Origin: Watersipora subatra | Taxonomy: Eukaryota > Bryozoa > Gymnolaemata > Cheilostomatida > Watersiporidae | Assembly: GCF_963576615.1 (NCBI RefSeq) | Contig: NC_088711.1 | Location: 13,625,869 to 13,689,868, forward strand | Length of the DNA stretch: 64,000 bases | Direction of reading: 5' to 3' | Shown here: positions 8,359 through 54,400 of the stretch, piece by piece | Position numbering within the stretch: position 1 is the stretch's first letter | How the letters are laid out: every line of letters begins with the position of its first letter | Position numbers and translations under genes: made by a program | Notes under the pieces: model-generated | Seen by the model: the letters and a program-made list of their open reading frames with translations, nothing else | Database searches by the model: none | Told to the model about the DNA's origin: nothing

Positions 8359-8574
8359 TGTAGTGTATCAGGGTCATAAGTATGCCACCTGAATCACACT
8401 GTCAACAATTGCAATAATGTGGCAATATGTTTGTTTCTCGGTGCTGTTGTCTTTGCACCTGAAATCGTCACTATGGTGAATCATTGATGACTTGCATACA
8501 CATATATATTGCTTGTAATGTAAAAATAAAACAGTCTTGAATTAGCCAGCCACCAGAAGTCTTGATACACTAAA
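8359..8574 (+). repeat. 5' LTR
   Basis: 216 bp, matches 9697-9912 almost base for base. Contains aataaaa near 8525, a plausible polyadenylation signal about 45 bases before the LTR end. Confidence 0.88.
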
Positions 8575-8586
8575 TTGGCGACGAGG

Positions 8587-9356
8587 ATGCCAGATAATAA
8601 AGCTATGGCTAATTTGTCAGAATTTGACAACTCTACGAGTGTTGAGTCATATTTGGAGCGGTTGGAGATATATTTTGCTGTGAACAAGGTTACGGGAGAC
8701 TCTCGTCAGTACATGCTGCTCATGGGCTTGAAAGGCTATCAATACGATACAATACGAGATCTGGCAGCCCCACAGAAGCCTAAGGATTTGACATACAGTG
8801 ACCTAGTTGACCTTGTATGCAAGCACTTTGGTACGTCAAAGCACTGGCTGGTGGAACGACTTTCATTCAGAGAGATGAGACAGAATTCGGGTGAGAATCT
8901 CAATGAATATGTCAGCCGCTTGAAAAGGACAGCTCGCCAATGTGAGTTTGCCAGTAGTCTGGACGTCAACCTAGTGGAACAATTTCTACGTGGCATGCGG
9001 GACACAATGCTGAGGTCAAAGCTGATCGCACTTGAGGAATCAAAGCTAACTGATATTACTGTGTTATTGCAAGAAGCAAATGCCAAGGTCGCTATAGAGC
9101 AGATTACACCTCCAGATGTGAAATCTGAAATGAATGCAGTCAAGAGGAATTGTTTCAGCAAGGACAAGCAATCTGTGGTGATTGTGGTTTAGAGCAACGG
9201 ATTAACCACAAGTGCCCAGCAAAAGGGCGCACATGTTTTAAATGTGGGGGCAACGGTCATTTAGCAAAAGCCCCTGCCTGCCCAAAGAATAACATCAGAG
9301 CTGTTGAGAAGGCACAGAAATTATTTGACTACGAGGACGACGATTCCCTGTTTTAA
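8587..9356 (+). pseudogene. Ty3/gypsy-type Gag, frameshifted before the zinc knuckles
   Basis: The first frame (8587-9192) resembles retrotransposon Gag capsid: acidic N-terminus, SYLERLEIYF, a QYMLLMGL helix, FGTSKHWLVERLSFR, and NLNEYVSRLKRTARQCEF. It then runs into a stop at 9190. The continuation with nucleocapsid zinc knuckles (CGDCG...HKCPAKGRTC and CFKCGGNGH) lies in another frame, overlapping from about 9150 and ending DDDSLF at 9356. The usual Gag is one frame, so an indel near 9150 is likely; a programmed shift is not excluded but no slippery heptamer stands out. The second knuckle has H-x6-C instead of H-x4-C, suggesting a further two-residue insertion. No pol follows. Confidence 0.8.
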
Positions 9357-9696
9357 GTCAGTCAGCTTAGCCAGTAAATCTACTAGTCAGTTAGCCAGTC
9401 AGCAATGTTTGCTCAATTTTGAAATGTGACGTTATTCAGCCATTCACTGTGTGTGATGTCTCTCTGCTATCTACTGTGTGTAGTGTTTCTAGTTTAGTCC
9501 AGCCAGAATTTGAGTTAGTACTGTGTGAACTTCTCAACAGATCTTGCATATGTTTCATGTGAATATTTCTGCTTTTGGAAGAAAAGGAAGGAATATGTTT
9601 ATATGTTTATTGAATTGTCAAAAATTGTCATATCCTCCTTTGTAGCCTATGTACCTGTATTACGTAAGCTTTCAATTTTGTAAAATTGGTAAGGGA

Positions 9697-9912
9697 TGTA
9701 GTGTATCAGGGTCATAAGTATGCCACCTGAATCATACTGTCAACAATTGCAATAATGTGGCAATATGTTTGTTTCTCGGTGCTGTTGTCTTTGCACCTGA
9801 AATCGTCACTATGGTGAATCATTGATGACTTGCATACACATATATATTGCTTGTAATGTAAAAATAAAACAGTCTTGAATTAGCCAGCCACCAGAAGTCT
9901 TGATACACTAAA
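9697..9912 (+). repeat. 3' LTR
   Basis: 216-bp direct copy of 8359-8574. Followed immediately by the target duplication aagag. Confidence 0.88.
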
Positions 9913-23806: not shown

Positions 23807-23924
23807 TATTGCCCTTGGTTCTTCACTCTTTTCTATTGTTGACGACGGAAAGGAAATCGTTGTAAAGAAAGTCTAAACAATGGCTATGAGACAATCTCTA
23901 CTACAAAAATTTTTGTGAAGCTCT

Positions 23925-24191
23925 GGATGCTTACATGAAAGCTCTGGATGCTTATATGAAAGCTCTGGATACTTATATGAAAGCTCTGGATGCTTATATG
24001 GAAGCTCTGGATGCTTATATGGAAGCTCTGGATGCTTATATGGAAGCTCTGGATGCTTATATGAAAGCTCTGGATGCTTATATGAAAGCTCTGGATGCTT
24101 ATATGGAAGCTCTGGATGCTTATATGGAAGCTCTGGATGCTTATATGGAAGCTCTGGATGCTTATATGGAAGCTCTGGATGCTTATATGAA
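23925..24191 (+). repeat. 21-bp minisatellite, about 13 copies
   Basis: Units of gctctggatgcttatatg followed by aaa or gaa. Read on the plus strand they give a heptad ALDAYM(K/E), and the frame opens at 23935 and ends at 24279 (114 codons). Regarded as a repeat, with a possible ORF discussed under findings. Confidence 0.95.
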
Positions 24192-26782
24192 AGTAGAGAT
24201 TTTAGTTACATATTTTAATTTTATTCATAGCAAAATTTCTGTGCTGCGTTTAATATTGTGTGCATTGTTATTTAAATAGTTAGAAAATTTTTGGAAAAAT
24301 ATAAATGCTTAGTATAAACCAGGTAAAGAAATTATTGTCCTATGCTCAACTTTAATGAAACTAAACTTCATTACGCTAAAACTAAAATAAATAATGTGAA
24401 AGATAAGAAATACTGTCATTTTTACTCCACACTATTTCAGTTCATAAAAATCTGCCAACCACCGATAAAGAGTTTTTGTACAATTTGGGGACATTGTGCA
24501 GAATGTCTAGATGCATGGAGGCAATGGCATGCTTTAAAGAGTTTTTGGATAAAAAATTTTCTAATAGAACTATTAACTGGGGAAACATTTTGATGGTCAG
24601 CACAATTACTTGCACTACCTTAAATATTGTCAAGGTTTTCAGCAAAATATTGAATTGATGCATTTAACAACTATATACACATTCAAATTATGATGTATGA
24701 TTAATGATACAAAAATGTTCAAAATAGAGTTGGTACTTGACTTTTTCTAACAATATGCGATCAAAATTTGAATGAAATATATATTGTATGGTCTGTTATA
24801 TTTATATATTCATTAGTTTAGATAAAACTAAATAGGTTTGCAAATAACTTTTATAATATGAAATGACATAAAAATATAAAAAAGTAAGCTTTTGATATAA
24901 TGCTACATCAAAGAAAATAAAGTTATATATAACATCATACAACCAATCTGAACGTAACATAACAAACTAAAATTATATGGAATGTTAAGAAATTAAAGAT
25001 GATTTTAAAAATAGTAGTTTGATTAACCAAAAAGTAGCAAAATCGTAAAAAAAGCAATATTTATAAGCAAAGTTGGGATAGCTTATGAGTTTTCTACATG
25101 TATATATATATATATCAGCGTTTATCAATTGTTATTTTTAGTCTGTTGTTCGTGCGTTGATTTGTACTCTAAGGTTTTAGGAGTGGATTTCACCTGGAAA
25201 ATCCAGGTCTGTGGGCAGACATTTTATTAACTACGTGCTGCCATATTTTTATGCAATGGATTAATTGTGGGCATACTCATTCCACCAGTTGAAATATGTG
25301 CACAAAGCTTTTGAAAAAATAATATTAGTTACTACTAATACGCTTAAAAAATTTCAAATCCAAACAATTATTAAGCTGCCATTCAACTATTATTCACTAT
25401 TATTATGGTGAAGATATAGACAAACTTAAGTTACTAGCTTATGTTACTCAAATTTTTTAGGCTATTATTTTATCACCTGATTAACATCGGGTAATCATCT
25501 AGGTAAAATAAAGAGTGAAACTAGTAAAATACCTGTTAACTAACATGACATAAAATGGTATGTGAAGCTAATAAGCTTATTGTTAATATTTATTGAAGTC
25601 GGAAAGTAGATTTAGGCATAATATAATTCTAACCACAAATATAGTTAACTGAGAACATTTAATCACTTGCAACAGTCTGACTATGGCATTCTTGTATCAA
25701 CCTGAGAGACGCCTGAAACATATTTACTAGGGGGCTTTCATATGGTATTCAAACTAATGTAGGTATACAACAGGCTTTTGCATAGCTATATGTTTCTTTA
25801 GTTTACCAGTTAGACCCTTGGCTAGGCTACAGTTCACAAGTGTCATTACTATATACTTATACTCTTCGGTTGAACACAACAGAATGACGTCAGACAATTT
25901 GATAATTAAAGACATTAATCTGTCAACAATTTCCCGTATTAAATTTCATAAACTGTCAAACATCTAATTACGATTTTCAAATTTTTTCAAAATAGAAAAT
26001 AAAATTTTTTGCAACTATTTGACTTTACACCAGAAATGATTCCCGCAAACGCATACATGTATATTCAAATTTCCAGTTGTGGCAATTTGATAAATGAAAG
26101 TAAAAAAGCTCGCGAAAATAAGGAAAAAATAAAAGACAAAAAATAAAATCTTAAAGTATGTATATACATTAATCTAGTTAAAACTTAACCTAGCTTAATG
26201 TAGAGTAAGTTATCCTACATATCTCTATGACGACCGCTACATCTATACACTGTATATAGATGCCTCTCTAAGGTAAAGTAACAATAAAACTTATTTTTAT
26301 TTACATTTACTTTTTTAATTTACTATTAACATATAATTTAGTTCATTCCAATTAGTTTTTTACATTGTTTTATTTAATTAGTCTAATGCGATTTCTAATT
26401 ACACACAGTATTTATTAAGGAGTTTTTATTGGTTCTAGACTGTGTAACGACTTAAATGAATTCAGGTGTATTCTCGTAGGAGTACATATTTGATACAACG
26501 TTAACATATTTGAACATGTGAAGCAAATCTCGGAAGAATTAACTTTATACGTAGAGAACTATCGCATATGAATTTCTTCTTATAGCAGTTCATGTCTGCT
26601 CATCATGATTTATATTTAATATAATATATAACCTTATATTAGATAATATATATAATATATACATTAATATAATAAATAACCAAATAACTTATAAAATAAT
26701 GTAGTAAGCAATTTTTGCTACCATATGGTTGAGTGTAAAATAATCAATATGATGTTATTTGGTAATCATCTCTTAACCAGGA
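24192..26782. other. Intergenic AT-rich region, no recognised gene
   Basis: Very AT-rich. A segment around 26260-26330 (ctctaaggtaaagtaacaat then T-rich sequence) has a diverged relative near 57743-57800, so it is probably part of a dispersed element. Confidence 0.45.
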
Positions 26783-32300: not shown

Positions 32301-35300
32301 ACACTGGCTGTTAAACATAGTGTGAAGGCACAAAAAGCATTCCTAGACATCTGCAAGTCACTCATAAGAGACCACAATCTATCGATAGAACAATGGTAAT
32401 CTCTGGAAACTATAGTAAAACATGGTTGCTTACTATATACAGGTTATATAGTATATAACACATATGCACGTAAGTAGCAACTAAAAACCAAGCATACCAA
32501 TTTACTGTGTAACAGTGGCTCCAAAAAGAAAACTCCCCAAATCACTGATGTCAAAGCTTACAAATAGACCGAGTAAGATGCGAAGCTATGTTCAACAGCG
32601 ACATTGAGCAGGTGGTGCAGGCAACTCTAAACCATTGCCTCTGCTTAGGTTTGGTTTATTAATTGTGTTAAATTCTGTCCTGGCATATTCTGGCCCTAAT
32701 ACACTTGCTCTCTCATTAACAGCACACAGAGATTACCCTAACAAGCTAATCTAAACATGTTTACACAATAACTGCGCTTCTCCAATCTTTCATTTTCATT
32801 TTATAAAATGACTGGTTGGAGCTACCGCCTAACAATAGCCATAATTTTTAAATAAACACGTGCACGTACCTAACGCATGCAGTTTGTATGCCTCGCTGGT
32901 GGTACGGTTGAGTATGATGAGTTGGATGTGGTAAGAAGCAAAAACTGTAAGTAGGACAGCCAGCAAAACCAGTGTACAGAAAAGGCCGAACACTCGCGGA
33001 AACTCGTAGAACATGTACTGTAACGAAATAAATATGTACTATAACAAAGCGAGCAAGTACTGTAACAAGATGAATATACAATGTAATACAAAAAATATAC
33101 TGTAAAAAAATGATCATACACTGTAACAAAGGGAACATTTACTGTAACAAAGTGAACATCTACTGTAACAAAGTGAACATCTACTGTAACAAAGAGAACA
33201 TCTACTGCAACAGAGTGAACATCTACTGCAACAAAGTGAACATCTACTGTAACAGAGTGAACATCTACTGCAACAAAGTGAACATCTACTGTAACAGAGT
33301 GAACATCTACTGTAACAAAATGAACATTTACTGTAACAAAGTGAACATCTACTATAACAAAGTGAACATCTGCTATAACCCAGTGAACATCTACTGTAAC
33401 AAAGAGAACATTTACTGTAACAAAGTGAACATCTACTGCAACAAAGTGAAAATCTACTGTAACAAAGTGAACATCTACTGTAACAAAGTGAACATTTACT
33501 GTAACAAAGTGAACATCTACTGTAACAAAATAAACATCTACTGTAACAAAGTGAACATCTACTGTAAGAAAGTGAACATCTACTGTAACAAAGTAAACAT
33601 AGAACATATACAGGAGAAAATAGCACTTGAAACAAAAAAGGCAAAAGGAGTGTTGCTGTGATCGAGCAAACATGTTTAGCAATATAATAGGATTATATTA
33701 CAAAAGAGTAAATATATAACATTTAGCAAGCTAGTGTGACTGCGACCATGTTGGATAGGTTGAAATTGAAAAAGCTTAACTGCATGATGACTATTAAAAC
33801 GACTTATAAAGACTATCAGTCTAACCTGAGCAAGCACCATACCACCAACAGATTGTTTCTGACCACTACTATCAATATACTTGAAGACGTGAAGACCTCT
33901 CGCTATGTACATGGCATCAAAGAACTGCCAACACATGACAGCACCGTTGCAGCACATAACAATACCGGTCAGCAATATTGCCACAAAGTAGCGATAGTTA
34001 TTTGCACCGATGCAACAATTTATCCAGGCGCAGTGGTGGTCAAATCTGTGGACACATTTGTTGCACACACCTACAACACATGAGTGAATACTTACACGCT
34101 GATTCAAATGATGAATAACAGACAGCAGTCGTAACTTGATTACCAACCCTGCTGTAATGAGATGGAGCTAAACAAGCTAGCAGAATGTATATAAATGACT
34201 GTCATTTGAACGGCTGAGGGACTCAACAAATAAACGCTGATAGTAATGTGAAGCCTGACATGATGCAATCAATTAAAAGTTGATATTGCTAGGAAAATAT
34301 TAATAGAGTGAATAAAAGAACGGACATGTTGAACGGACATGCTAAGGAAGAAATAGTTTCAAGTTGGTTGCAGAAGGAGATGTTACTAATAAGAGTTCCC
34401 CACAATATAATCTTGATTCATTAGCATATCGGAGGATAAGAGCTGCAACCCTATAGATTTGCTCATTACACTTTTCATTTTGGTTACTCTGATAGACAAG
34501 GTAACAGTCACTATAAAAAAGAGTGTGGTTCAACAGCCAGTCAAATAAGTGATATTAGTTAAAATAGTGTATAATTTTGCAGATTAGGGTAACAACGCAA
34601 ACAGATACAAGTAATTACAGTAGTTGATCATAGACTTTGAAGTTTTAACCGTCTCTAAAGTCCAATAAATAATATAAAATTGTTGCTGACAACCGTCGGT
34701 AGTGAAGGTTCTTTCTCTACGGTATTCTTATCTCTAAAGTAATCTTATCTCTACAGTACTCTTATCTCTACCATATTCTTATCTCTACAGTACTCTTATC
34801 TTTACAGTACTCTTATCTCTACAGTACTCTTATCTCTACAGTACTCTTATCTCTACAGTACTCTTATCTCTACAATACTCTTATATCTACAGTACTCTTA
34901 TCTCTACAGTACTCTTATCTCTACAGTACTCTTATCTCTACAGTACTCTTACCTCTACAGTACTCTTACCTCTACAGTACTCTTATCTCTACAGTACTCT
35001 TATCTCTACAGTACTCTTATCTCTACAGTACTCTTATCTCTAAAGTACTGTTATCTCTAAAGTACTGTTATCTCTAAAGTACTCTTATCTCTAAAGTACT
35101 GTTATCTCTAAAGTACTCTTATCTCTAAAGTACTGTTATCTCTACAGCACTCTTATCTCTACAGTACTCTTATCTTTACAGTACTCTTATCTCTAAAGTA
35201 CTCTTATCTCTATAGTACTCTTATCTCTAAAGTACTGTTATCTCTACAGCACTCTTATCTCTACAGTACTCTTATCTCTACAGTACTCTTATCTCTACAG

Positions 35301-38300
35301 TACTCTTATCTCTACAGTCCTCTTATCTCTAAAGTACTCTTATCTCTAAAGTACTGTTATCTCTAAAGTACTCTTATCTCTACAGCACTCTTATCTCTAC
35401 AGTACTCTTATCTCTACAGTACTCTTATCTTTACAGTACTCTTATTTCTAAAGTACTCTTATCTCTATAGTACTCTTATCTCTAAAGTACTGTTATCTCT
35501 ACAGCACTCTTATCTCTACAGTACTCTTATCTCTACAGTACTCTTATCTCTACAGTACTCTTATCTCTACAGTACTCTTATCTCTAAAGTACTCTTATCT
35601 CTAAAGTACTGTTATCTCTAAAGTACTCTTATCTCTACAGTACTCTTATCTCTACAGTACTTTTATATCTAAAGTACTCTTATCTCTACAGTACTCTTAT
35701 CTCTACAGTACTCTTATCTTTACAGTACTCTTATCTCTAAAGTACTCTTATCTCTATAGTACTCTTATCTCTAAAGTACTGTTATCTCTACAGCAATCCT
35801 ATCTCTACAGTACTCTTATCTCTACAGTACTCTTATCTCTACAGTACTCTTATCTCTACAGTCCTCTTATCTCTAAAGTACTCTTATCTCTAAAGTACTG
35901 TTATCTCTAAAGTACTCTTATCTCTACAGCACTCTTATCTCTACAGTACTCTTATCTCTACAGTACTCTTATCTCTACAGTACTCTTATCTCTACAGTAC
36001 TCTTATCTCTAAAGTACTGTTATCTCTAAAGTACTCTTATCTCTAAAGTACTGTTATCTCTACAGTTCTCTTATCTCTACAGTACTCTTATCTCTACAGT
36101 ACTCTTATCTCTACAGTACTCTTATCTCTACAGTACTGTTATCTCTACAGTACTCTTATCTCTACAGTACTCTTATCTCTACAGTACTCTTATCTCTACA
36201 GTACTCTTATCTCTAAAGTACTGTTATCTCTACAGTACTGTTATCTCTACAGTATTCTTATCTCTACAGTACTCTTATCTCTACAGTACTCTTATCTCTA
36301 CAGTACTCTTATCTCTACAATACTCTTATCTCTACAGTACTCTTATCTCTACAGTACTCTTATCTCTACAGTACTCTTATCTCTACAGTACTCTTATCTC
36401 TACAGTACTCTTATTTCTAAAGTACTCTTATCTCTACAGTACTCTTATCTCTATAGTACTCTTATCTCTACAATACTCTTCTCTCTACAGTACTCTTATC
36501 TCTAAAGTACTCTTATCTCTATAGTACTCTTATCTCTACAGTACTCTTATCTCTACCGTACTCTTATCTCTATAGTACTCTTATCTCTACAATACTCTTA
36601 TCTCTACAGTACTCTTCTCTCTACAGTACTCTTATTTCTAAAGTATTGTTATCTCTATAGTACTCTTATCTCTACAATACTCTTATCTCTACAGTACTCT
36701 TATCTCTAAAGTACTCTTATCTCTACAGTACTCTTATCTCTACAGCACTCTTATCTCTACATTACTCTTATCTCTACAGTACTCTTATCTTTACAGTACT
36801 CTTATCTCTACAGTACTCTTACCTCTACAATACTCTTATATCTACAGTACTCTCATCTCTAAAGTACTATTATCTCTACAGTACTCTTATCTCTACAGTA
36901 CTCTTATATCTAAAGTACTCTTATCTCTACAGTACTCTTATCTCTACAGTACTCTTATCTCTACAGTACTCTTATCTCTACAGTGCTCTTATCTCTACAG
37001 TACTCTTATCTCTACAGCAACAAGATAATGCAGACACATTTAACAAATTTTCCTTTGAATTATAACCACCATCTTTGTTTTGCAAGTTTCAAATAAAAAG
37101 TCACTTGTACATAAAAGAGTAGAATATGCATAAAGCTGAAAATAACAAATTTGCTACTGCCTTTTTATGGTATACAAAATCAAGTGTGGGCTAGAGGACA
37201 AGCAGCAGTCAATCGATATGGTGAGGAATGTTCCATTTCAACTGTGCCAGCTGAAATCACTCTGCTTTTTAAGCAACAGCATTAACATCAATGCTAGTGA
37301 AATCACCGTAAAACATATTTATGGGCGAATTACTACCTTAGTTTTCTTAAGAGTCAAAGGAGGCCGGGCAGACTTCGCTTAGCAACAACTTCTGCATTTT
37401 CCGTTTTACATATTTGGCAAAAAGCAACTAAATTTGGATTTGCCTCCCTTGGACTGCACTTTGTTTGATACAATAAAGAGCAGACAACTACGCTTTTTCA
37501 CTACAGCCTACACAAAAGCTTTAACAAGCTTATTTTATATCAAACCAAAAAATTTAGATGCTTTTGTATTTTGAAGCGTACATTTGTACATTCCATTTCA
37601 CGGACCACAGCCCATTTGTACATTCCATCTCACGGACCACAGCCCAATTGTACATTCCATCTCATGGACCACAGCTCATTTGTACATTCCATCTCACGGA
37701 CCACAACTATGCAAAAAAGCATGACAAGCCAGCACCTATCTGCTTGTTTTTTTTTCAGCTTTTGTCGTAAATCTACATCTTAATATACTAGGAAAATGAC
37801 CTGATAGCTTGCTGTAAATTTAGGTAAAGCATACAAGGGTGAATGAAATAGTTCTTTATATTTCCAAATACACTCCCACAACTCTGCGGGAATGTACCAA
37901 CAAGTTATCATTTGAAAAGTCATTTATCATATTCTGAAATTCTAATATTTAATATCTGTATTACATCAACTAAATAGACATCTAGTCTAACCTTTGACCC
38001 CTAAAAGTATGAAAATTATATATAACAGAACAAAATAAATAACAAAATAAATAACAGAACCATAACGTAATTATAAATAGACTTATTAAGAATAGCTTTA
38101 ACATAGTATAACATAACACGATGTGTAACAGTCTAGCAATATATAGATGTAAATATATTGTGTGATGCATATATAAACCGGCATATATATACCGGTATAT
38201 ATATATATACTGGTATATATATATACTGGTATATATATATACTGATATATATATATACTGGTATATATATATACTGGTATATATATATACTGGTATATAT

Positions 38301-42662: not shown

Positions 42663-43757
42663 TTTGTAACACACCATTACAATCAAGCTTATCGTCAATA
42701 TAATCCTAGCTATATACACTATTGTTCATGACTAAGAGAGTTTGTAACACACCATTACAATCAAGCTTATCGTCAATATAATCCTAGCTATATACACTAT
42801 TGTTCATGACTAAGAGAGTTTGTAACACACCATTACAATCAAGCTTATCGTCAATATAATCCTAGCTATATACACTATTGTACATGACTAAGAGAGTTTG
42901 TAACACACCATTACAATCAAGCTTATCGTCAATACAATCCTAGCTATATACACTATTGTACATGACTAAGAGAGTTTGTAACACACCATTACAATCAAGC
43001 TTATCGTCAATATAATCCTAGCTATATACACTATTGTACATGACTAAGAGAGTTTGTAACACACCATTACAATCAAGCTTATCGTCAATATAATCCTAGC
43101 TATATACACTATTGTACATGACTAAGAGAGTTTGTAACACACCATTACAATCAAGCTTATCGTCAATATAATCCTAGCTATATACACTATTGTACATGAC
43201 TAAGAGAGTTTGTAACACACCATTACAATCAAGCTTATCGTCAATATAATCCTAGCTATATACACTATTGTTCATGACTAAGAGAGTTTGTAACACACCA
43301 TTACAATCAAGCTTATCGTCAATATAATCCTAGCTATATACACTATTGTACATGACTAAGAGAGTTTGTAACACACCATTACAATCAAGCTTATCGTCAA
43401 TATAATCCTAGCTATATACACTATTGTTCATGACTAAGAGAGTTTGTAACACACCATTACAATCAAGCTTATCGTCAATATAATCCTAGCTATATACACT
43501 ATTGTTCATGACTAAGAGAGTTTGTAACACACCATTACAATCAAGCTTATCGTCAATATAATCCTAGCTATATACACTATTGTTCATGACTAAGAGAGTT
43601 TGTAACACACCATTACAATCAAGCTTATCGTCAATACAATCCTAGCTATATATACTATTGTTCATGACTAAGAGAGTTTGTAACACACCATTACAATCAA
43701 GCTTATCGTCAATACAATCCTAGCTATATACACTATTGTACATGACTAAGAGAGTTT
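42663..43757. repeat. 78-bp satellite, 14 copies
   Basis: Highly uniform units beginning tttgtaacacaccattacaa and including agcttatcgtcaatataatc and catgactaagagag. Differences are few: ttcatg or tacatg, and atataatc or atacaatc. Confidence 0.97.
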
Positions 43758-46700
43758 GAGACTGAAAGTGCTGATGACCTATGACCAATGAAAAAAATAA
43801 ATGCAAGTGAACTCACATTAGTCTATTCTTAATCCTTACTCAGTCTATTAGATGCAATTGATAAAATTGTAAAGGCAACTCGGATGGCTGCTGGAGCGAC
43901 TGCTACGAACACACCGTAAGTAAAGGAATTAGCCCATAGCCAAACTATGATTTTAAAAGATACACGTAGTCCGTGGTGAGTGTTTAAATGTGCATGTAGC
44001 TTGTCCGATCTATTTTATGTAAACACCTTCGTGAATGTTACCAGTACATTTACTCAGGTGGTACAAGTTCATTTTTGTTGCATGACCCTTGGTACGACAA
44101 AGGTTTTTAAAAGTTATTCATGTTTACAGAGTAATCCTCCTTCTTTAAAGTATAACAGTTTTTGGCTACCCACTTGCTTGCATCATGTAAAATATAGTGA
44201 ACAACAGAATGGACAACAGACAACAAAATGGAAGTCAAGGTCTCTACTAGCATGCTAATTACAAGAAGAATTTTTACCGCCATGCAAACATTTACATTGA
44301 TTTGAATCAAAAATATTTATTTAAATTTACCATAAAAACTTCATATAAAAAATCCTGTAATTTTTGCTGAGTAAGCTAACTTGTGAAAATAAAAATTCAC
44401 AGCTCTGACGAGTCTATAGATGACACTTGCAAATAAAAACACTCAAAGATGTAATGGTATTATATATGACCCACATAACTAAAAACCCTAAGTTAACTTA
44501 TGATTCAATGATAAAAACACTTATAAAAGTACTAGCCGACGTTGGGATACATCGCTGTTAATATTGGTAAAACCAATGTAAACAAGGGAACTAAAATTCT
44601 GTTGTCATATAAATTTGTTTTCGTATACATTGACCTACAACTAAATGCCAATCTTAGCAACTGAATTAATACTTGAACACCATAACAATTTAATAGAATT
44701 ACATTGATCAGATCCTGGGAGTGTACAAAAAGAACTTGCAATTAGAATGCATCATGAAAATCGACGAAGTTAGTGCAAAACCGTTGATTAACCAAGATTT
44801 CTTATGGAACCACTGTCCTAATTGTTTCGTCGAGATCTGCAAATATTTACACATTAGCAGATGCTTGTAACAATTTAGGTTACACAGTTTTTTTTTCATT
44901 ATATTTAATTTTTGCACTAACAGTTGTTTTTGTGTAAGACTGTTTGCGTAAGTTAAATTGTGAATTGGAGTCAGCATGCTCGCTTGGCTAATTGTATTCT
45001 ATTTTCAGTGTAATATTCTGGACATAAAAGATTATCTTTTAAAAGCTTCCTTTGGTGTATTTAAATAACATGGAGTGCTTGTCATTCTTTGCATCTGAAC
45101 TTCAACGACGAGATTAGGTCAATTGTTGAATCTAGAAGAGACATCTTGAGAAAACAACTGTTGTCTCTCTTTAGGTGAAAGAATGTTGAATTGACAGGTA
45201 AACAGATACGGCAGTAGCCACTGCATTGACGTGACAGTTCTATTTGGACAGTTCTATGGTGGTTAGTTGATGATGACACATGAAGTGGTTAGGTACTGAT
45301 CAACTCAGTGGATGCTTTGCTGTCAAGCTCTGTTAAAGCTCACCATACAAACTTAAAAAACAATGTGAAAGCGCATTTGAATAGGAGGGTTAGCAACTTA
45401 CTGTGATATCAACTAGAGTTACATCAACTGGTGCAAGTTACTGTAATTCCACAAATAATGCAAATGTTAAAAGCAACTCCCCAAATCGAGTGAATTCACA
45501 CAGCTTGCATGACTTGGTGTAGGCTACATATATATGACATATATGTGAAGTCTTGATCTGTCACCCTCGGGCCAATGTAAAAAAAAACTGAATGGATGAC
45601 AGAAGCAATGAGTCACAATGTGGTCACAAAGAATATCAATTAAGCTACATTAAAAAATGCACGTAAACATAATTTGACAGTAGACTGGTATCCTTGGACA
45701 CTAGGACTTGACTGGCTAGTCAGGGGAAGTTTTGGGTATGGTTCATTCATATACATGTACAGTATCCTCAAGGAATTTCAAGAGAGTTTCATCTTGTGCT
45801 AATTCAGGGTGAATGCAATGCAGTTGAAGCAATCCAAAAACGTGAGGAATTGCCAAACAAACTAACAATACCAATCCAAGACAAAAGGTTCACAACTATT
45901 AATCAAGATATTTCTCCAATTGATCCGACCAAACAAACTGGTCAGAAAATCTTGTGTTATTAGTAACCATACAAACACTAAGCTACTGATGTTCAATAAT
46001 GCAGTCACATTTATACTTTAGGGCTCCTGGTCGAAAATACCTGCCTCAGATTAGCTCAACTCTTCTAGCATGCTCTAAGCTTTTTTAAAGACCAAACTTC
46101 TGTTATATTCAGAAAGGCAAAAAAATAGTGTTAAATTTTCAGAATCTCCAGCTACCTCAGCCTGCTTCCTCACTAACATGCCAGAGTTTGATTGTTGTAC
46201 AGCTAGTTCTTTCATTTTTCCTTCTTTTATTGGAGCTTTGAATGGCAATCTTTCGGAATAACAAAAGCCTTTTAATAGCTCTGTAAAAATTCTCCTGAGA
46301 CAATACAATCCAGTTTTTTATAGAACTTGGCCAAAAATGGCAATCAAAAAATTTGGGACATTGTGCACTCATTGGTTTACTGATTCTTAAATCAAAGAGA
46401 AGTAAAACTTGTAAAGGCTAGTCAGTTTTTTATTCGGCTGGTAAGTGCTCTGTTTATATTTACTTCATCACTGAAACTCTTGCACATAGATTTTGAGAGT
46501 ACAAGGCAATTGTTGGTTAGCCAACCTGTGTTTGTTCCATGACTAGATACATGTATGTATATATGGTTGATCTGCCTGATCTATGCTTAAGTTAGGGCTA
46601 GGTCTTAGCTCGGCTCCTGTGGTTAGGTAGCTTGTTCCACGTTATGTAGCTTAACTTTACAGCTGCTTCAAAACTTTACCTATAATGTCTTTAGGAGCCA

Positions 46701-51424: not shown

Positions 51425-54400
51425 ATGGCCAAACTCTCTTGTCGGTTTTATCAACACAAATTTCCTGAGCAAGATGATGTCGTGATGGTAAAGGTGCGAG
51501 ACATAGCTGAGATGGGAGCCTATGTGCATTTGTTAGAGTACAATAATATTGAAGGCATGGTACTACTCAGTGAATTGTCTAGAAGGCGTATTAGGTCCAT
51601 CAACAAGCTCATTCGGATTGGCAGAGATGAATGTGTCGTGGTGATTCGGGTCGACAAAGACAAGGGTATTTAGCTACTCTACAAATTGTTTAAAGGTTGA
51701 CTTGCAACAAAGTTCACATTACAGTTATTTGGTATCAAAATATTCACCATGTCTTACTCTGTTGTGTTGTAGGTGCCAAATATGTGGAAATGTGATTACA
51801 AGCTCTTAAAAGCTCAAAAACGAAAAGCCGCCGTAGATTGGAATCTCTTTACTTCTCTGACATAGTCATGAAATTTGGTTATTGTCTTGTCACGTGATGT
51901 TCTCACGTGAATTGAAAGGGCAATAAAAAGCTCAATATAAAACTTATCGTAGCACTAGTTTATGACAAACACTTCAGGTTTTACCGAAGATCCCGTATCA
52001 AATATAGATGCTCGCTACTTTACAGTTTTGTTTCGGTTTGGTCTAATCGGCAAGTAGTAATCTGATCATGTGACCCAATACTTCGCAAATAATTTCTGCA
52101 GCACCTTTCGATTATCACAAGTGATCAACAGGCTCGTCATGATTATCAGACAATGATATGTACTCCTTCAAGCTAAGGCTAAAAAGTAAACGAATTTTTA
52201 CGGTTAGTTTTAAGATATCACTGATAAAAGTGACAGCATTACAATGGCGAAATTACAAATGCGTGAAGTATATTTGTGAAAGTATTTCGACGAATAAGGT
52301 TGCATAAAAGTGTAAATAGAAACCATCTACCACAGCTACGTCACATTTGAGCCGTTTTGAAAAGAGAATCCAAACTATGGCGGTCTCATGTGGCTGCGAT
52401 TAACTGTTCGTTTTTGAGCTTTTAAGAGCTTGTAATCACATTTCCACATATTTTGTACCTACAACACAACAGAGTAAGACATGGTAAATCTTTTCATATC
52501 AAATAACTGTAATGTGAATTTTGTTGCAAGTCAACGTTTAACAATTATTGACTTGTGCGATTCAACACTTTTTATCCCATCTCATTGCTAATCTAATGAA
52601 GTCCTGACCTAATGAAAAACAGCATCAGCGCTTTCTCATCTGTAAGTAATAGTAAAATTTAAGAATGTTTTGTTTTTATATGTTAGTTTAAGTACCATAA
52701 TAAGCTACAAACAGAGCATCTATTGTTGCTTTCAGGTTATATTGATTTATCAAAACGTCGAGTCGGCCAGGAAGATATTGTGAAGTGCACAGAAAAGTTC
52801 TCTAACGCCAAACATGTAAGTGCAGCATGTTTAAGTATATTCAGCTTATCTAGGTTTTTTGTAAGTACAGCAGATCTACGGACATGTAAATATAGTGTAT
52901 CCAGGCTTATAAGTATAGTTCATCTATGAGTGTATGTATAGTATATCTAGGTATTGTAAGTACAGTGTATCCAGGTTTGTAAGTATAGTTCATCTATGAG
53001 TGTATGTATAGTATATCTAGGCATTGTAAGTACAGTGTATCCAGGCTTGTAAGTATAGTTCATCTATGTGTGTATGTATAGTATATCTAGGCATTGTAAG
53101 TACAGTGTATCCAGGCTTGTAAGTATAGTTCATCTATGTGTGTATGTACAGTATATCTAGGTATTGTAAGTACAGTGCGTTTGGTGTATTTAGGCATGTT
53201 TGTACTGTGTATCTAGCGTGCGTGCGTGTGTGTGTGTTGCAGTGGGTATATGTCCAAGAGTGCAGTGTATCTATATGTATATGCCTAGAATATTTAGGCA
53301 TATACGTACAGTGTGTCTACGTATATATGTACAGTGTATTCAGGCATACATGTACAGTGTATCTAGGCAAGAATGTGTGACGAAACTACTGAGATAGCAG
53401 AATATTCAACTATCTTAGTGGTTGTCACACAATTATATATGTACATTGAATTGTCATTATTAGGTGAACAGTATACTCCGACACGTAGCTGAGCTCCTAG
53501 ATTATACAACCAATGAGCAGCTAGAAGAACTCTATGAAAAGACAGCTTGGTTTTTTGATAGGAAATATGGCAAGACCGGTGCATCATTTGAGGCCTTCAA
53601 GCATGCTGTGCTGTAAGTACAACTGAACTTGATAGTTTTTTTTCCCAGACCTTGTGGTTTAGCTAAGGTGTGGTTACACGGAGCGGTTGATGTTTTAGCT
53701 ATGCTAATATCCCAGCTGTAAAAGGTTGCTGTGTTCGCTGATGTTTATTCACTGATGTTTTATATAAAAAGGTGATTTCTCCCTGACACTGCCGCTTCTG
53801 ACTGTATATATCAGTCAATGCAATCACACTGCTCAGTGTCCTTGAGAAGGAGCTCAGTGTCCTTGAGAAGGATGAAAAGTTTTTTTACCTATGTGGCAAA
53901 AGCTGTTGAGTTGTCTTGAATATTTTTGATGTATTTATCTGTCTTGCGTTGTTCTCATGATTTTTGTCTAGACTTGTCGACTCAGTGGAACCGTGTCATG
54001 TTGTTTATTGTAAATACAATTGCCGCTAAGTTTTATTAAAATTATGGTTACAGGGAGCCTGAGATCCTAGACGAATGTGACATTGATTCTGACACCAAAG
54101 AATGCCTTTTGGCTGATATTAAAAGAAGATTAACACCGCAAGCTGTCAAGATTCGCACCGGTTTGTTATGTTATATTTGTTATGTTTATAGTTGTTAGAA
54201 TAGTAGGTTTAGTAGGTTGTTGTGTACTTTTTCGTAGTGACATTTCAAATCTGCTTGCAGACGTAGAGGTCGCCTGTTACCACTATGATGGAATTGATGC
54301 TGTAAAGACGGCTCTCAAAGCTGGTTTGACTGTTTCAACAGAAGATATGCCTATTAAAGTAAGTTCTTCTGGTCATTAGAAGACGAATATAAATCTATCT

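Follow-up and report, generated by a model that had tools for sequence, protein, structure and literature searches.

Tandem repeats that lie across an intron-exon boundary have been described in amphioxus as mirages, which are minisatellite-like and in many cases carry AG/GT signals. They are known in Adh3 and in the globin genes BflGb6 and BflGb9 and have been proposed as a route of intron gain (PMC3087553). A further report describes a mirage in troponin C, together with similar, imperfect repeats in PGBD5 (PMC3902484). Two human genes resemble these on the donor side. The VNTR in intron 18 of ABCA7 sits at a splice junction and opens with the two bases of the exon 18 donor; when splicing shifts to the following donor, a single 25-bp unit stays in the transcript, which is then out of frame (PMC5954066). 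In IFI6 (6-16), the units of a minisatellite act as several splice donors (PMC4526556).

Here we describe an array at the acceptor of ZDHHC4 exon 5 in the bryozoan Watersipora subatra, within a 64-kb window (the whole stretch of DNA that was analysed). This kind of structure is already described in lancelets, and the bryozoan case adds to it; we found no report of splice-boundary arrays in bryozoans in the open-licence literature, which does not prove that there is none. In BflGb6, the repeats comprise the 3′ end of the intron and the 5′ part of exon 2, and the units at the cluster boundary escape homogenisation (PMC3087553), as do the exon-proximal units of ZDHHC4. The bryozoan array differs from the mirages in its 21-bp units, its about 28 copies and the stop codon that opens the exonic part of most of them, whereas BflGb6 units measure 150-160 bp and number 6 and 3 in two haplotypes (PMC3087553) and those of the Adh3 mirage measure 10-72 bp. 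In amphioxus, RT-PCR and the Adh3 data suggest that splicing is undisturbed. Both human arrays are unlike the ZDHHC4 array in their donor-side position: that of ABCA7 begins at the intron, is strongly length-polymorphic and is linked to disease (PMC5954066), and in IFI6 the downstream units are in use as splice sites (PMC4526556).

The ZDHHC4 locus and its 21-bp array

The gene lies on the minus strand, and we take it to be the paralogue ZDHHC4 from a tblastn comparison with a provisional human ZDHHC4 sequence. Its membership of the DHHC palmitoyltransferases was clear from the translation of exons 4 and 5, which matched PF01529 (DHHC) over model residues 2-127 of 132 (E 1.6e-22) with a score of 80.4 bits against a cut-off of 28.7; this match spans the join between the two exons. 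Because the domain crosses the join and exon 4 ends in phase 0, the coding acceptor of exon 5 is placed at 33018/33017, where the sequence reads ...TTTCGTTACAG/TACATGTTCTACGAG in gene orientation (a slash marks the splice point). A probe made from exon 5 had one match in the assembly.

Table 1. Features of the ZDHHC4 exon 4 to exon 5 region (positions in the window).
Feature	Position	Strand	Description
ZDHHC4 exon 4, bearing the DHHC motif	33826..34070	-	phase 0 at its end; ends ...CTTGCTCAG in gene orientation
ZDHHC4 intron 4	33018..33825	-	808 nt, donor GTTAGA
Intronic part of the 21-bp minisatellite	33018..33600	-	unit ACTTTGTTACAG/TAGATGTTC in gene orientation; 18-nt partial unit and 27 units
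Homogenised core	33121..33600	-	one partial and 22 full units with 14 distinct sequences among them; units differ pairwise by 9.5% on average
Decayed exon-proximal units (n=5)	33018..33120	-	13-16 of 21 positions identical to the consensus
Exonic part of the last unit	33009..33017	-	the 9 nt that open exon 5 (TACATGTTC), coding for Y M F; agrees with the unit at 8/9 positions
ZDHHC4 exon 5	32870..33017	-	148 nt, then donor GTACGT

TRF found an array of period 21 with 28.3 copies and 84% matches at 33009-33600, which occupies the 3′ end of intron 4 over 583 nt and extends 9 nt into exon 5. When the array was read by wraparound alignment from 33600 to 33009, the partial unit and the 27 further intronic units led into the 9 exonic nt with no indel between the last array units and exon 5, so that the register is exact; one unit, at 33099, is 2 bp short. 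Each copy consists of the 12 nt of the intron end followed by the 9 nt of the exon start. A TTNYAG acceptor-like site ends every intronic unit but the one ending at 33081, and a stop codon opens 21 of the 27 unit starts that follow the first partial unit (17 TAG and 4 TAA). The last two units begin with TAC, as does exon 5, and the core carries TAG there.

The copies are not equally well kept. The 9.5% difference within the core is a mean over 231 pairs of its 22 full units, and the four 21-bp proximal units differed from the core by 26.8% on average (88 pairs). The array has all three structural features of mirages that were tested, namely edge units kept out of homogenisation (9.5% in the core versus 26.8% for the proximal units), a repeat unit that straddles the exon-intron boundary, and AG/GT splice signals within the repeats (26 upstream TTNYAG sites and the true one). 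An earlier note on this DNA had described about 28 copies of a repeat made of the gene's own acceptor boundary, with the true acceptor in a degenerate edge unit. The array is real and in register with exon 5, its unit matches the junction at 18 of 21 positions, and the true acceptor does belong to a degenerate edge; the copy number holds, the array edge is corrected from 32998 to 33009, and the period of 21 bp stands although the unit had been quoted with 18 of its 21 bp.

Likeness of the splice junction to the array

The 18 of 21 positions at which the last 12 intronic and first 9 exonic bases agree with the consensus compare with 16 of 21 for the best other 21-mer outside arrays, on both strands of the window. 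For the exonic 9-mer alone, the 8/9 agreement has a P of about 2e-4 over all 9-mers outside arrays and 3.2e-4 among those that follow AG, and it was seen in 0 of 131 that follow TACAG. 

We then compared 55 splice junctions with 87 arrays. The junctions, 26 of them acceptors and 29 donors, came from the window and the loci L038-L041 and had a readable boundary; of the arrays, 4 were from L039 and L041 and 83 from a sample of 264 kb, made up of the window and twenty stretches of 10 kb. Window junctions with an unclear boundary and all junctions of L042 and L043 were left out; in L042 TRF found no array, and in L043 it found a single repeat of two copies. The best of all pairs was the ZDHHC4 acceptor with its own array, which ranked first of 87 with no ties. 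Nineteen junction-array pairs taken to share an intron were ranked, in which some junctions and arrays recur, and sole first place was taken in two of them, by the ZDHHC4 acceptor and by the donor of a myosin gene; the other 17 ranked from 2 to 64 of 87. The exon 4 donor agreed with the array at 9/21 positions and ranked 60/87, and the array is therefore not of the donor type, in which the 5′ splice site of the intron adjoins the array or is contained in it.

When one mismatch at most was allowed, the unit was found 16 times in the whole 783.7-Mb assembly, each time inside the ZDHHC4 array. These results indicate that the unit was not copied from a dispersed near-identical repeat.

Acceptor choice and the origin of the array

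Because the unit at 33099 is 2 bp short, 24 of the 26 TTNYAG sites upstream of the true acceptor would put exon 5 out of frame. It had been expected that the use of other units would add multiples of 21 bases and keep the frame, which is mostly wrong for this reason; the companion expectation, that TAG in most units introduces a stop, was borne out, as the exon would start with TAG or TAA from 21 of the 26 sites. An early stop would arise from 23 upstream acceptors, at codon one in 21 and at the seventh codon in 2. Two of the other three shift the frame without a stop in the stretch examined, and the third, which is the nearest to the exon, is the sole upstream acceptor that is both open and in frame, adding 21 nt and 7 aa. 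In a small score matrix built from 25 acceptors (its own members scored 0.89 to 10.28, mean 6.43, leave-one-out), the true acceptor scored 5.5; scores of the array sites ran from 1.75 to 8.81, with 12 of the 26 upstream acceptors outscoring the true site. Acceptor strength fails to distinguish the true site, and therefore either its position would have to mark it or misspliced RNA would have to be destroyed. Given the reading frame and the domain that runs across the join, splicing presumably chooses the last acceptor of the series.

The array is quite likely a splice-boundary minisatellite of the mirage kind that grew from the exon boundary, and we infer the following order of events. A duplication of about 21 bp, taking in 12 nt from the end of intron 4 and 9 nt from the start of exon 5, would have been followed by further copying, by slippage or unequal exchange. 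If new copies arose upstream of the previous ones, the exon would retain both its acceptor and its opening bases, and the other copies would turn intronic. The core would have been homogenised around a unit with TAG instead of TAC, while the units adjoining the exon would have escaped homogenisation and then decayed. Splicing would normally fall on the acceptor closest to the exon, favoured by exon definition and by the short distance to the exon 5 donor; transcripts joined to other units would begin with a stop and may for that reason mostly be removed by nonsense-mediated decay. Among the points against this explanation are that the exonic likeness spans only 9 nt and that, with 12 of the 26 upstream acceptors scoring higher, sequence leaves the use of the last site unexplained.

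The earlier note had offered two origins, growth out of the boundary and adoption of a repeat unit as a splice site, and the first is favoured on balance. Under the second, the array would have been born in the intron, and an edge unit would either have become the acceptor or have converted the start of exon 5, the exon thereby copying the repeat. We consider this unlikely, although arrays are common in introns of this genome without touching a junction; at L039, for instance, two arrays lie 27 bp upstream of an acceptor and 122 bp downstream of a donor. Adoption is opposed by the state of the exon-side units, which are the most decayed and not the freshest, and by the exon itself, which shares TAC with its two nearest units and not the TAG of the core. 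The residues Y-M-F encoded by the exonic array bases, inside the DHHC domain, were also aligned by tblastn with Y-L-F of the provisional human ZDHHC4 sequence, which together with the decay of the nearest units argues for duplication of the boundary into the intron. This alignment is weak: the piece that carries Y-M-F has 24.5% identity (E 9.2e-6) and starts in the translated array before continuing into the exon. The proposed direction of change takes its basis from this one provisional human sequence. Eight solved DHHC relatives give no support for conservation of Y-M-F, which speaks for adoption: their individually significant alignments (seen in full for four of the eight) end at query residue 57 or earlier, before Y-M-F.

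A chance meeting, in which an independent array with an acceptor-like unit spread as far as the splice site and resembles the exon by coincidence, is very improbable. It would draw on CTACAG, ACAGTA and GTTACA being among the most over-represented hexamers in the 83 array units of the sample, and on the large array at 34710-37017, which has CTACAG on the strand opposite to the gene; but it would have to account for an in-register agreement of 18/21 where 21-mers outside arrays reach 16/21 at most in the window, for 8/9 in the exon part alone and for first rank among 87 arrays. A reading compatible with the mirage history is that the copies serve as decoy acceptors, whose number would tune productive ZDHHC4 mRNA because the use of a decoy gives stop-containing RNA. 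The 26 upstream TTNYAG sites, with 12 outscoring the true one and 23 giving early stops, would suit such a switch, as would the human ABCA7 VNTR, which has a donor at its start, yields a premature stop when one unit is retained and affects alternative splicing through its length (PMC5954066). In amphioxus, however, arrays of this kind are reported not to disturb normal splicing (PMC3087553, PMC3902484), and we hold a regulatory role to be very improbable.

With growth from the boundary as the preferred reading, the mirage type of structure, reported in lancelets and paralleled on the donor side in two human genes, is extended by this case to a distant phylum, and the growth of introns through splice-boundary minisatellites may thus be more widespread. 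The array also places a series of near-identical acceptors side by side in a single intron, a natural setting that offers a good test of positional choice by the spliceosome where sequence does not decide; its value lies in taxonomic distance, high copy number and ease of RNA test. Since public RNA-seq (ERR11641139), HiFi reads (ERR11458812 and ERR11458813) and an alternate haplotype (GCA_963576605.1) exist for Watersipora subatra, the questions of intron growth and acceptor choice can be approached without new samples. A much broader proposal would be that arrays in this minisatellite-rich bryozoan genome repeatedly start from splice junctions, and that such arrays lengthen or create introns and load genes with stop-bearing decoy splice sites whose copy number tunes productive splicing; we regard it as quite improbable.

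Other arrays in the genome

The myosin donor is a likely second case. In a gene with a myosin head at L041 (C3:74184601-74186450, minus strand), an 18-copy array of a 29-bp unit, at 608-1132, adjoins the donor CGGTCAGAG/GTATTCTACC; the TRF edge at 1131 falls within one base of the intron start at 1132, and the reading frame continues across the intron. Units start with GTATATTC in 16 of 18 copies, with GTATTC in the first, donor-adjoining unit and with GCATATTC in one. The junction ranked its own array first of 87 (15/21), and its exon part had no match to the array (5/14), which indicates that the array begins at the boundary instead of spanning it, like that of ABCA7. This locus was chosen for a match within a long open frame and is not a random sample; L038, L039, L040 and L042, chosen in the same way, gave no comparable case.

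A donor-derived origin was also considered for an array in intron 2 of EIF2S1 (TRF rows 52859-53376), in which donor-like GTAAGTACAG units start 43 bp after the donor at 52816. It was unsupported, the junction agreeing with its arrays at 12/21 and ranking 4/87 with 13 ties.

The 264-kb sample held 83 arrays (units of at least 9 bp, at least 3 copies) covering 36.6 kb. Spaced words were counted over the whole assembly, the counts being of matches and not of arrays: three spaced copies of GTAAGT gave 45,653 matches against 13,702 for the backward-read control, and three of TTACAG gave 26,219 against 6,609. The same search gave 10,291 matches for ATCTGA, 25,006 for GATGTA, 30,380 for ATGTAG and 125,891 for AGTCTA. 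A genome-wide enrichment of splice words in arrays was rejected, as GTAAGT and TTACAG are unremarkable beside the four other words. The count for AGTCTA is far above those of the other words and probably reflects an abundant satellite.

Several further repeats were seen in the window. The array at 34710-37017, in intron 3 of ZDHHC4, comprises about 136 copies of a 17-bp unit. Another, at 42663-43758, has 14.1 copies of a 78-bp unit with 99% matches and is probably young, and an array of 21-bp period at 23890-24276 is open in several frames, for example as repeated ALDAYMK/E. Two nearly identical minus-strand ORFs, at 8377-8541 and 9715-9879, flank an ORF region (8566-9353) that appears gag-like by eye, with a zinc knuckle; the stretch from 8377 to 9879 is perhaps a short retroelement with direct terminal repeats. 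Outside the window, 12 matches to Cpn60_TCP1 were found at C3:22.6-30.7 Mb, each 1.1-1.2 kb long and in one frame, 8 of them without an inner stop, which suggests an expanded intronless chaperonin-like family on one chromosome.
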